A stretch of 64,000 bases of DNA from contig JALHQH010000049.1 of NCBI GenBank assembly GCA_022842065.1, forward strand, positions 26,692 through 90,691. The letters run 5' to 3'. A model generated the notes under the pieces. It was not told the origin of the DNA. It saw only the letters and a program-made list of their open reading frames with translations, and did no database searches. This document shows positions 45,057 to 48,222 of this stretch, in pieces; position 1 is the stretch's first letter, and each line of letters opens with the position of its first letter. Position numbers and translations under genes: made by a program. The stretch is from Caldilineaceae bacterium. Lineage in GTDB: Bacteria > Chloroflexota > Anaerolineae > Caldilineales > Caldilineaceae.

Positions 45057-45120
45057 GGAGACAAGACACGAGACATGAGACACGCCACACGAGACACGCG
45101 ACACGAGACACGCGATGGGG
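45057..45120 (+). repeat. Degenerate GAGACACG repeats after the permease
   Basis: Seven or so imperfect GAGACAC/GACACGAG units; purine-rich, no clear function. Confidence 0.6.
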
Positions 45121-45121
45121 A

Positions 45122-45149
45122 TTGACAGCGGCGGCTTTTCTGCTATGAT
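45122..45149 (+). promoter_or_regulatory. metG leader promoter
   Basis: TTGACA (45122-45127), 16-bp spacer, TATGAT (45144-45149). The start would fall within a few bases of the leader ATG (45156), so the leader ORF may be read from a nearly leaderless mRNA. Confidence 0.8.
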
Positions 45150-45155
45150 AGGCGC

Positions 45156-45302
45156 ATGATGAATTCACAGACGACGGTAGGTTTCGCCAACACGCAGATT
45201 TTTGCGCAAACGATGATGGGTATGACCATGCAGATGTGTGCTTACACGCCTGTTATGCCATGCTGTCTGCCGTCGGAAATGTGTGGGCGGTGCGCTTCCT
45301 AG
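45156..45302 (+). CDS. Methionine-rich leader peptide of metG
   Basis: A 48-codon ORF, ATG 45156 to TAG 45300-45302, too short for standard calling. It begins Met-Met, and residues 20-27 are M-M-G-M-T-M-Q-M, five Met codons in eight; nine Met in total, plus five Cys. It lies just after a consensus promoter and just before an intrinsic terminator, upstream of the methionyl-tRNA synthetase gene. The pattern is that of an attenuation leader peptide, where ribosomes stall on the codons of the sensed amino acid. There is no Shine-Dalgarno; a second ATG at 45159 is also possible. That the peptide is translated is inference. Confidence 0.8.
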   Translation: MMNSQTTVGFANTQIFAQTMMGMTMQMCAYTPVMPCCLPSEMCGRCAS

Positions 45303-45366
45303 CCGCCACGTAAACTAACACAAGACCGGTAAAAGGGCCGTCCACAGCGTGGGCGGCCCTTTTTTT
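45283..45366 (+). promoter_or_regulatory. metG attenuator: antiterminator and terminator
   Basis: Terminator: AAGGGCCGTCCAC (45333-45345) with GTGGGCGGCCCTT (45349-45361), AGC loop, then T-run to 45366. The octamer GTGGGCGG of the 3' arm occurs a second time at 45283-45290, inside the end of the leader ORF, and can pair instead with CCGTCCAC (45338-45345) to block the terminator. The same octamer can also pair with CCGCCAC (45303-45309) with one bulge. A ribosome at the TAG stop would cover 45283-45290 and allow termination; one stalled at the Met run would leave it free. Confidence 0.78.
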
Positions 45367-45417
45367 GTTGCCTTTTGCCGGTGGTATTTTGAGTCACGAA
45401 TGAGTTAAAAACAAAGG

Positions 45418-45477
45418 ATTAGCCACAGGGAACACAGAGAAATACAGAGAACTCCGCTGTGATCTCTGTGGCTAATC
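45418..45477 (+). repeat. Inverted repeat before metG
   Basis: GATTAGCCACAG and CTGTGGCTAATC arms, with further CAGAG/CTCTG pairing; no T-run, ends ~30 nt before the metG start. Confidence 0.6.
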
Positions 45478-45508
45478 AAATAGAGCAAATCGAGGAAAAC
45501 AAGCGATC

Positions 45509-47092
45509 ATGAACACAGCAGCGCATGAACCCAAAACTATCTATATCACCACCTCAATCCCCTATGTCAACGCGCAGCCACATATTGGCCATGCGCTGGA
45601 GATGGTACAAGCTGACACGCTGGCACGCTATTACCGTTTACAGGGGCACCAAGTGCGCCAACAAAGTGGTGCGGATGAGAACGCGCTGAAAAATGTGCAA
45701 GCAGCTGAGCGGGAAGGGGTTGAAACAGCGACCTTGGTGGCGCGCAACGCCGCCCACTTTGCCGGCTTGCAGACCAGTCTCAACCTGACGTGGGATGACT
45801 TTATCCGCACTAGTGCTGATGCTCATCATGGGGCCGGCGTCGAAAAGTTCTGGCGCGCCTGTGCTGCAGCTGGGGATATCTACAAACAAGCCTACCAAGG
45901 GCGTTACTGTGTCGGCTGTGAACGCTTCTATGAGGAAGCGGAGCTGGTTGAGGACAAGTGTCCGATCCACGAGACCAGCCCCGAGTGGATCGAAGAGGAG
46001 AACTACTTTTTTCGCCTCTCACGCTATGGCGAGCAGCTCTGCGCATTGATTGAAAGCGACGCGTTACGGATTGTGCCCGATAGTCGGCGTAACGAGGTGC
46101 TCAACTTTATTCGTGGCGGGCTGCGCGACTTTAGCATCTCGCGCAGTAGCGCACGTGCGCGGGGTTGGGGGATTGGGGTGCCGGATGATCCCGACCAAGT
46201 CGTCTATGTTTGGTTTGATGCCCTGATCAACTATATTACCGGGCCCGGTTATGCCCACGGTGCGGCAGCCTATCAACAGTTCTGGGTCAACAGTGATGAG
46301 CGGCTGCACCTGATCGGCAAGGATATCACCCGCTTTCACGCCGTCTACTGGCCGGCGATGTTGCTCTCGGCCGGTTTGCCCCTGCCTAGCACGATCCTGG
46401 TGCATGGCTTTATCACGATTGACGGCGGCAAGGTGAGCAAATCCAAGGGCAATGTGATCGATCCGGTGGCGTTGGTGGCACAGTATGGAACCGATGCTTT
46501 GCGCTATTACCTGCTGCGCAAGGTGCCAACCACGGGTGATAGTAATTTCACACTGGCGGAATTTGTCCAGACCTACAATGCCGACCTGGCTGACCAATTG
46601 GGCAATCTGTTGCAGCGGGTGGTGAAGATGGTGGAGAGATACAATGGCGGCAAGATTCCGCAGTTTGACACATTAACGCCGGTTGACCAAGCGCTGATTA
46701 CCCTTGCAGCAGCCACACAGACAGAGATCAAGAACGCCGTTGTCGAGTTCGCCCTGCATAAAGCAGTGGAAGCGGTCCGCGTGCTGGTGGTAGCAGCGAA
46801 TAAATATGTCGTCGATGTTGCGCCGTGGGCATTGGCAAAAGCGAGCGCGCAAGGTGACCTGGGGGCAAGTCAACGGCTCAACACAGTGCTTTATGTGTTG
46901 CTGGAAACCTTACGCTTACTCAGTCATTACTTGGCCCCATTTTTGCCCAGCACGGCGGCAGCGATTAGCACACAATTAGGCTTGACGGCAGGAACATGCG
47001 ATGAAGGGTGGCAGATGGCTCTATCGTGGGGTCAACTGGCAGCAGGGCGAGCGTTGCCACCGGCGCAACCGCTCTTTCCCAAACAGATCTGA
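45509..47092 (+). CDS. metG: Methionyl-tRNA synthetase
   Basis: Charges tRNA(Met), including the initiator. Class I signature P-H-I-G-H near residues 27-31 and K-V-S-K-S near residues 310-314 (KMSKS variant). Zinc knuckle area C-V-G-C-E-R-F-Y and C-P-I-H. The 527-aa length is the short form, without the C-terminal EMAP-like dimerisation domain. GAGGAAAAC precedes ATG 45509. Preceded by the Met-rich leader and attenuator, so expression likely rises when charged tRNA(Met) falls. Followed by the terminator at 47133-47166. Confidence 0.97.
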   Translation: MNTAAHEPKTIYITTSIPYVNAQPHIGHALEMVQADTLARYYRLQGHQVRQQSGADENALKNVQAAEREGVETATLVARNAAHFAGLQTSLNLTWDDFIRTSADAHHGAGVEKFWRACAAAGDIYKQAYQGRYCVGCERFYEEAELVEDKCPIHETSPEWIEEENYFFRLSRYGEQLCALIESDALRIVPDSRRNEVLNFIRGGLRDFSISRSSARARGWGIGVPDDPDQVVYVWFDALINYITGPGYAHGAAAYQQFWVNSDERLHLIGKDITRFHAVYWPAMLLSAGLPLPSTILVHGFITIDGGKVSKSKGNVIDPVALVAQYGTDALRYYLLRKVPTTGDSNFTLAEFVQTYNADLADQLGNLLQRVVKMVERYNGGKIPQFDTLTPVDQALITLAAATQTEIKNAVVEFALHKAVEAVRVLVVAANKYVVDVAPWALAKASAQGDLGASQRLNTVLYVLLETLRLLSHYLAPFLPSTAAAISTQLGLTAGTCDEGWQMALSWGQLAAGRALPPAQPLFPKQI

Positions 47093-47193: not shown

Positions 47194-48138
47194 CTAATTC
47201 GGATCAAGGTCAATGCCCAATGCGCGCAATTTGGCAGCGTACGCTTCGGCGCGCTTACGTTCAGCAGCAGCCTGACGCTCGGCAGCAGCAGCCTGACGCT
47301 CGGCAGCAGCAGCCTGACGCTCGGCAGCAGCAGCCTGACGCTCGGCAGCAGCAGCACGTGCTTCGGCAGCTTGGTAGTGCAGCAGAACAAAACCCCGATA
47401 GACATCATCCAGGGCCAGCGTTTCGAGTGAGCGTTGACGCTTTAGATCGCTGTAGCGAAATTGAAAGCCCGGCAAGACCTTGGAGCGGATGACCCCTTCT
47501 TCATCAGGCTGCATTTCAACATAGCCACCAGTCGGCGCTTGCTCATAAAAATGCATATTCACGCCAGCCGGATCGAGAATATAATACTCCTGCACGCCGG
47601 CAAAGGCATACTCGCTCTTTTTAATCGTGGTATCACGCAGGATCTCGTCTTTGGAGGAATCCGAGATCGCCTCGATACAGAGGTCGCAGATGCCGTGGTA
47701 GGAGCGCTCGTCGGCACCCCAAGTCACCGGATTGGTGTGCAGGATGGCCGCCAGATCGGGCTTGCGGATCACCTCTTTCATGAGGTGCAGTTGATCAGGA
47801 TCCGGCACGCGCATGGTAAAGCCGGTCTCCAGCCCCATCAGTTGGGCATTCTGGGCGACAGCAACATACTGACGCAGGAGTTCTAGGAACCAGTGAAAAA
47901 GTTGCAGTTGAATTGGGTTGGGCATCGGTTTGACCTCGAGGTAGCCGTTGTTCCATTCATAGCTTGGCTCTGCCTCGTACCAAACCGCCCAATACGCTTC
48001 TTTGGTCACATAGCGGCCATGGTCAGGGGCAACCAAGGCGGACAGCCCGTGGCCATTGGCATGACCATTCTGGTGTCCCGTTTGCTGGTTCATTGGCTTC
48101 TGGTTAGTTGGAGTTGGCGTTGATGTTGCAAATGCCAT
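47194..48138 (-). CDS. Uma2-family (DUF820) PD-(D/E)XK nuclease-like protein with AAERQA repeats
   Basis: About 314 aa. The Uma2 core shows the restriction-like fold signature: E-T-G-F-T-M-R-V-P-D, R-K-P-D-L-A, C-I-E-A-I-S-D-S-S and K-S-E-Y-A-F-A-G-V-Q-E-Y-Y-I. The N-terminus has an Asn/Gly/His-rich stretch. The C-terminus is a coiled-coil of near-identical A-A-A-E-R-Q-A heptads encoded by four 21-bp tandem repeats (47274-47357). ATG 48138 is chosen because GGAGG lies upstream. Uma2 proteins are multi-copy in Chloroflexota and cyanobacteria; their role is unknown. Confidence 0.85.
   Translation of the reverse strand: MAFATSTPTPTNQKPMNQQTGHQNGHANGHGLSALVAPDHGRYVTKEAYWAVWYEAEPSYEWNNGYLEVKPMPNPIQLQLFHWFLELLRQYVAVAQNAQLMGLETGFTMRVPDPDQLHLMKEVIRKPDLAAILHTNPVTWGADERSYHGICDLCIEAISDSSKDEILRDTTIKKSEYAFAGVQEYYILDPAGVNMHFYEQAPTGGYVEMQPDEEGVIRSKVLPGFQFRYSDLKRQRSLETLALDDVYRGFVLLHYQAAEARAAAAERQAAAAERQAAAAERQAAAAERQAAAERKRAEAYAAKLRALGIDLDPN
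47262..47357 (-). repeat. 21-bp tandem repeat coding for heptads
   Basis: Plus-strand unit of 21 bp, built from GCAGCAGCAGCCTGACGCTC plus one G, four near-identical copies. It keeps several frames open, which produces a false plus-strand ORF. Confidence 0.9.
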
Positions 48139-48169
48139 CTGACATTCCTCCATTTGGTATAGACTTGGC

Positions 48170-48222
48170 GCTGCCACAAATTAACACGTTCGCCAGTGTA
48201 AAAAGTGTTAATTTGTGACAAC
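48170..48222 (+). repeat. 53-bp dispersed palindrome, copy B
   Basis: Homologous to copy A at 43965-44017 in opposite orientation; here it lies directly upstream of the Uma2 gene. Confidence 0.8.

Follow-up and report, generated by a model that had tools for sequence, protein, structure and literature searches.

A putative methionine leader-peptide attenuator before metG in a Caldilineaceae genome and its Chloroflexota relatives

How might a member of the Chloroflexota match its production of methionyl-tRNA synthetase (MetRS) to the supply of charged Met-tRNA? The question is raised by a locus in the window, the whole 64,000-nucleotide stretch of Caldilineaceae DNA that was analyzed, in which a short Met-rich ORF and a terminator stand between a promoter-like site and metG. 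Judged from the sequence and its relatives, this arrangement is very probably a transcription attenuator of the ribosome-mediated, leader-peptide kind, through which metG expression would depend on charged Met-tRNA, and it is from the same material that we infer the direction and the response of the switch. The original prediction for this DNA had proposed a Met leader-peptide attenuator of metG, and as an interpretation it is supported in kind, with changes to its parts that are described below.

The leader locus in the window

The features discussed here lie on the plus strand. A promoter-like site of the sigma-70 type, TTGACA-16-TATGAT (45122..45149), matches 11 of 12 consensus positions; when the rule was loosened to 9 of 12, the region held one site against a mean of 1.2 in shuffles. 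Downstream are a Met-rich leader peptide ORF of 48 codons (45156..45302; MMNSQTTVGFANTQIFAQTMMGMTMQMCAYTPVMPCCLPSEMCGRCAS), an intrinsic terminator (45331..45363) with a 15-bp stem of about -26 kcal/mol, a 3-nt loop and a T-tract reaching 45366, and metG itself (45509..47092), encoding a MetRS of 527 amino acids. All four were found at the positions originally given for them, and translation bears out the Met residues that had been read at 20, 21, 23, 25, and 27 of the leader, five within eight residues. The codons of this run (20-27; 45213..45236), presumably the regulatory ones, are followed immediately on the 3' side by a small hairpin, GUGUG-CUUA-CACGC (45236..45249), read from the sequence, the alignments, and a consensus fold. 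The -10 box and the ATG are just 6 nt apart, and transcription of the leader may therefore be leaderless.

The synthetase matches the Pfam family tRNA-synt_1g and lies above the cut-off of TIGR00398 (metG); its best NCBIfam model is PRK12267, with a score below the cut-off of that model. In a protein search, all of the named relatives with at least 66% identity are from Caldilineaceae or Caldilinea. The leader ORF has no Pfam family, and nothing in the window scores as high as the gathering threshold of any Rfam family. Between the terminator and metG lies an imperfect inverted repeat of 21 nt (45417..45477), whose 14-nt end has no further copy in the window with up to two mismatches allowed; it is probably unrelated to the switch.

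The layout and Met density of the window's leader exceed chance. Among 802 window ORFs of 20-75 amino acids, only one has at least four Met in nine residues, and it is the leader ORF itself. None of 2000 dinucleotide shuffles of 45057-45508 reaches five Met in nine residues and five reach four; 79 other loci (670 kb) contain two ORFs with five Met in nine, both without a terminator behind them.

The pairings that could oppose the terminator are less simple than had been proposed. The octamer GTGGGCGG, which the original prediction placed at the center of the switch, is present as an exact repeat (45283-45290 and 45349-45356), a fact that is unremarkable by itself, one or two 8-mer repeats being expected in 470 bases by our estimate. 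As a conserved element the octamer was rejected: relatives keep a CCATGCTG-like element instead. Because such an element is carried at the aligned place by the window (45258-45266) and by eight of the ten other members of its group (group A, below; it is absent from L088 and L178), the duplicated octamer looks, from the alignment, like a local addition in the window. The corresponding antiterminator segment, CCATGCTGT (45258..45266), can pair with 45344-45352, with one G-U. A second segment, GTGTGGGCGG (45281..45290), includes the octamer and can pair with 45338-45346 in the 5' arm of the terminator; it is not seen as such in the relatives. The best duplex between the leader and the first half of the terminator combines the CCATGC element (45258-45263) with GTGTGGGCGG at -27.6 kcal/mol, and 3 of 200 shuffles do as well. 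A possible early competitor, CGCCAACAC (45185..45193), does pair as had been suggested, matching 45281-45289 in 8 of 9 places; a conserved segment near the leader start was not supported, complementarity there looking suggestive by eye in several loci.

Related loci and the pairing that they keep

Two sets of relatives were compared. Group A consists of 11 sequences: the window, L001, L086-L089, L091-L093, L176, and L178. The closest locus among the genomes collected is L001, from an Anaerolineae MAG whose MetRS is 59% identical to that of the window; it has the same order of promoter, leader (MSIASFITTFFMMSMVMRMAGLPRFVLPMLAAAPIK), terminator, and metG, and the Met spacing MMxMxMxM is common to both (MMGMTMQM in the window, MMSMVMRM in L001). 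Across the class, order, and phylum sampling, this 59% marks the nearest upstream DNA compared, whereas protein relatives reach 87%. Seven of the loci (L086-L089, L091-L093) belong to one order, probably Ktedonobacterales, and the last two, L176 and L178, came from a class search and likewise have a Met leader and a terminator before metG. The leaders of these nine resemble RMVMRMRGLPRDPKSMLPAA, and three of them (L086, L087, L088) have just two Met in nine residues. The codons of M23 and M25 are nevertheless invariant columns in all 11 sequences, and in many an RGLPR-like peptide follows the Met run.

The consensus fold of group A contains the terminator, a pairing of CATGG, from a Met codon, with a downstream CCATG, and a hairpin after the Met codons in which three pairs are changed on both sides. 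It is with this GCGCGG...CCGCGC hairpin that the window's hairpin at 45236-45249 aligns. The CCATGCTG-like element faces the terminator with matching partners: CCATGCTG lies opposite CAGCATGG in the terminator loop in L089, CCATGCCG opposite CGGCATGG in L087, and CCATGCTG opposite CAGCGTGG in the window, where the reading frame differs from that of L089 and L001. A model built from the ten relatives with the window left out (R3) found the window as its best match, at 43.3 bits and E = 6e-9, the next having E = 0.37. The duplex stands out clearly from shuffles in 5 of the 11 sequences (the window, L087, L089, L091, and L092) and not in the other six, and from the group A alignment A2 a column scan returned a single stack, of four pairs, which lies at the base of the terminator.

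Group B comprises 16 loci from the same order as the seven group A loci, with MetRS proteins about 43-48% identical to that of the window. Their leaders, of which MTLQQKNMYMSMCVAMDQMSMMMASGRVSLFLSTPDYAQTC is an example, contain 3 to 10 internal Met and precede strong terminators; L112 is Met-poor, with two Met in nine residues. When all columns were compared with all others for stacks of at least four pairs, with at most one sequence unpaired and at least two varying pairs, five stacks emerged: the terminator, an antiterminator, and three short registers of G-run against T-tail. The antiterminator segment lies after the Met run and reads GTGTCGC, GTATCGC, or GTGTCAT in most of the loci, and its partner is the 5' arm plus the loop of the terminator. 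In this pairing 96.9% of cells are paired, compared with at most 72.8% when one side is slid by one to three columns. Nine cells are changed on both sides, confined to three pairs and few sequences.

The group B antiterminator scored 0.378 against 0.235 in shuffled alignments, and the terminator 0.507 against 0.263, with none of 500 shuffles as high in either case. Of the five measures used for the antiterminator, two are unexceptional: "pairs with a change on both sides," for which 140 of 500 shuffles were as high, and "further pair types," for which 482 were. By duplex energy, 13 of the 16 loci have at most 16 of 200 shuffles as good, and the duplex is not unusual in L122, L124, and L126 (32, 101, and 72 of 200). 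Beyond the Met run the leader peptides of this group have drifted apart, yet the RNA pairing persists.

Comparison gives a recurring Met leader ORF, a kept terminator, and a complementary segment after the Met codons that covaries in group B. Relatives had been named at the outset as the test of the proposal, and in them the Met leader and terminator are indeed kept before metG, with the antiterminator pairing clearest in group B; for the window's own group the case for that pairing appears the weaker of the two. More than in the octamer, the conserved heart of the arrangement lies in the Met codons, in the distance from them to the antiterminator segment, and in the pairing of that segment with the loop and 5' arm of the terminator.

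Ribosome placement, mechanism, and rival explanations

The position of the Met codons relative to the antiterminator core is one-sided in group B, with 114 upstream and 4 downstream. The last upstream Met codon lies 16 nt from the core in 11 of the 16 loci, 13 nt in two, 22 in one, and 1 in two, and the codon phase of the core is identical in all 16. With that codon in the A site, the footprint of a ribosome would leave a core 16 nt further on just free. Folding was computed in 27 loci for the RNA outside a ribosome placed on each Met codon in turn, and the mean paired fraction between the terminator 5' arm and upstream RNA was 0.71 at the best stall, compared with 0.51 for RNA bearing no ribosome and 0.52 when one stood at the stop codon. 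In 11 of the 16 group B loci a ribosome at the stop codon alters the computed pairing little, and there folding gives no account of the Met-replete state. The window itself behaves differently: its Met run is placed suitably by distance, and the computed gain in pairing is absent (0.44-0.51 with a stall on the run, 0.45 at the stop, 0.69 without a ribosome), so that in its case no switch emerges from the computation. The earlier suggestion that a ribosome at the stop codon would mask the antiterminator thus fits the window by distance and not by folding.

In the mechanism that we propose, RNA polymerase would start at about 45156 and a ribosome would follow it on the leader. Were elongator Met-tRNA short, the ribosome would pause on the Met run and the antiterminator segment would clear its front edge; the freed segment could then pair with the emerging 5' arm and loop of the terminator, and transcription would enter metG. 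Were Met-tRNA plentiful, the ribosome would cover the segment, the terminator would fold, and transcription would stop before metG. Against such an attenuator it must be said that a shortage of Met also limits fMet-tRNA and hence initiation on the leader. Met is an odd choice of sensor because the initiator tRNA, without which no leader is translated, is charged by MetRS too, and if the proposal is correct, the locus provides a direct test of how far the elongator and initiator Met-tRNA pools are separated under shortage.

The leader might instead sense a general slowing of ribosomes, as caused by translation inhibitors, or act through its nascent peptide, and not respond to Met-tRNA specifically, an explanation to which we give a small chance. 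In its favor, the antiterminator and terminator core of the group B metG leaders recurs in eight genomes ahead of a gene for an ABC-2-type exporter ATPase, where model R1 matches over its full length (L196, L203-L209; positions near 1501-1650 in each locus) and where a dense Met run is missing from the leaders. They are mostly Met-poor, the exception being L196, whose five internal Met make the division between the two kinds of leader not absolute. The ATPase is DrrA-like, although the two that were tested score under the NCBIfam cut-off. An ORF starting MQAK, or related to it, reads the core in a phase other than that of metG loci in six of the eight, and in four of those six a second ORF is in the metG phase. 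Since the core also precedes exporter genes, the antiterminator and terminator have the look of a switch that can be reused, and dense Met runs accompany it mainly at metG. Such runs precede metG of two different types, which speaks for a response to Met-tRNA. The frequency of RGLPR-like peptides in group A would suit an action of the nascent chain, but the hairpin persists in loci with another peptide (GQPAR in L092, SLLR in L178), which speaks for RNA over peptide, and the change of frame in which the window reads the CCATGCTG element, relative to L089 or L001, tells in the same direction.

Could the ORF simply be the gene of a small Met/Cys-rich protein, closed by its own terminator, with metG served by a promoter of its own? 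The ORF does possess a promoter and a terminator, and the scan of the 500 bp between it and metG, which listed no further promoter on either strand, was a crude one. Yet the ORF has no Pfam family, homologous layouts stand directly before metG elsewhere, and the group B peptides diverge where the RNA pairing persists. We regard this reading as very improbable. Less credible still is control of metG by a T-box or another known riboswitch, despite the T-boxes found before window-type metG in other genomes (below), because RF00230 has no match in the window; a T-box or other Rfam element was accordingly rejected there, none reaching its gathering score. It is equally hard to credit that Met codons and a terminator have merely come together by chance. 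In favor of that view, the feature has a small extent and a repeated octamer would turn up at random on its own; against this stand the Met density relative to shuffles, the group B antiterminator score that none of 500 shuffles reached, and the leave-one-out match to the window (E = 6e-9), given which chance is very unlikely.

If the attenuator reading is right, its mechanism is of a known kind, and what appears to be new is the gene, the phylum, and the setting of two synthetases that is described below. Leader-peptide transcription attenuators are known for trp, his, leu, ilv, thr, and pheST. These have in common with the present locus a short ORF rich in the cognate codon, alternative antiterminator and terminator structures, and a regulated gene downstream; here, in contrast, the amino acid is Met, the gene is metG, and the phylum is Chloroflexota. 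Leader-peptide attenuation would thus be extended to the methionyl-tRNA synthetase gene and to Chloroflexota. A comparative paper by Lopatovskaya and others from 2010 is said to deal with attenuation of synthetase operons, and an earlier mention may be found there; the portions of the literature available to us contained no Met leader before metG and no leader-peptide attenuator in Chloroflexota. In Streptomyces lividans, as far as the accessible text of the report goes, leader peptides precede leuS, trpS, alaS, and thrS, several of them leaderless, and a Met-containing leader, metL, has been proposed before metNIQ, which encodes a Met importer (PMC8079986). The likeness lies in the position before synthetase genes and in leaderless transcription, which may occur here too; metL differs, on the same partial text, in having two internal Met and, according to its authors, no typical Rho-independent terminator, in preceding a transporter gene and not metG, and in belonging to another phylum.

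Distribution, T-boxes, and genomes with two synthetases

Among 400 Chloroflexota genomes, 101 have the window-type MetRS at E <=1e-120, in 105 matches, and upstream DNA was read for 90 of these. A Met leader with a terminator is present in 24 of the 90 upstream regions (8 in group A and 16 in group B), 20 of them identified by the scan rule of at least three Met in nine residues and four that the scan missed (L086, L087, L088, and L112) counted by their layout from the DNA; L176 and L178 are two leaders beyond these. By a result that comes from the scan and mostly without reading by eye, 64 of the 90 regions, weak candidates included, have no clear leader, and the strict T-box motif occurs in two of the 90. 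The weak candidates L096, L103, L116, L170, L172, L223, and L225 are not counted as leaders. The duplex test gave 135, 35, 62, 162, and 51 of 200 shuffles as good in L103, L170, L172, L223, and L225. It gave 139 and 27 in L221 and L222, so that none of the seven is remarkable by this test. L221 therefore rests on its Met run, its terminator, and its match to a model, whereas for L222 the grounds are a terminator and the Met codons of the ORF.

Of 47 genomes from the order of G093, 25 carry the window-type MetRS at E <=1e-60. The leader is present in 24 of them, 23 lying within the 24 of 90 above and one (G359) being recognized through model R1; the one genome left unread is G165. Model R2, run over the 400 genomes, gave 11 matches: eight are the group A loci of that sample, one, in G310, is a Met leader that precedes a gene of the other MetRS type, and the remaining two, in G351 and G269, are low-scoring and have no recognized metG behind them. 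Before the other MetRS type, an ORF with a Met cluster and a terminator was found in 4 of 30 loci (in G310 and G167, and more weakly in G143 and G193), and the scan found no leader in the other 26.

T-boxes sense tRNA charging and control synthetase genes through a terminator and an antiterminator; the T-box riboswitch (RF00230) differs from the present element in binding the tRNA directly, without a leader peptide. In the parts of the surveys that were accessible, T-boxes are the tRNA-charging control named for Chloroflexota. One precedes the window-type metG in L094 by its Rfam match, and the T-box motif precedes this gene in L098, L175, L177, and L002. In 19 further sources, 16 of them leader loci, no Rfam family attained its gathering score. 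It would appear from these loci that T-box and leader peptide have been swapped between genomes upstream of one MetRS type, each standing in for the other in front of a single gene. A parallel is offered by the Bacilli, in which, on the accessible part of the report, a His leader precedes hisS paralogues that have a T-box in other species (PMC2965389). On that partial text, leader peptide and T-box again alternate by lineage before the same synthetase gene, with His and Bacilli there in place of Met and Chloroflexota here.

Eleven leader-bearing genomes also have a second MetRS type (G101, G173, G197, G259, G023, G117, G125, G365, G341, G353, and G322); G085 and G093, if they were sampled at all, are without a listed match in this count. 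The second MetRS fits PRK00133 best, compared with PRK12267 for that of the window; these we take to be MetRS type 2 and type 1, respectively. No Met leader with a terminator was found before the second gene in any of eight upstream regions scanned (L239, L248, L250, L251-L255), the scan of L255 covering just 180 nt. Because the leader stands on one of two synthetases, an inducible backup is suggested: it is conceivable, if on balance doubtful, that in many of these Chloroflexota the attenuator, instead of tuning a sole MetRS, is the switch of a reserve PRK12267-like MetRS while a PRK00133-like enzyme that has no leader does the daily work. According to the part of a published account open to us, inhibitors of MetRS1 have poor activity against MetRS2 (PMC8165550). 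If the main enzyme failed, as a natural inhibitor might cause it to, ribosomes would stall on the Met run and the backup would be made, and the sensor would operate in the range in which elongator Met-tRNA is short and initiator fMet-tRNA still suffices to start the leader. Genomes with two MetRS types thus offer an idea that can be tested, that of an inducible backup synthetase.

Some smaller features of these loci may be recorded. In L186, the leader locus of G359, the ORF after the leader ends at 255 amino acids and a later stretch matches MetRS residues 210-525, so that its metG is possibly a broken gene or the product of a sequencing error. In the window, three direct repeats resembling GACACGAGACACGC with 14-nt spacing lie just upstream of the promoter (45061-45113), and downstream of metG the minus strand carries a Uma2-family ORF (47194-48177) with tandem AERQAAA repeats near its C terminus.
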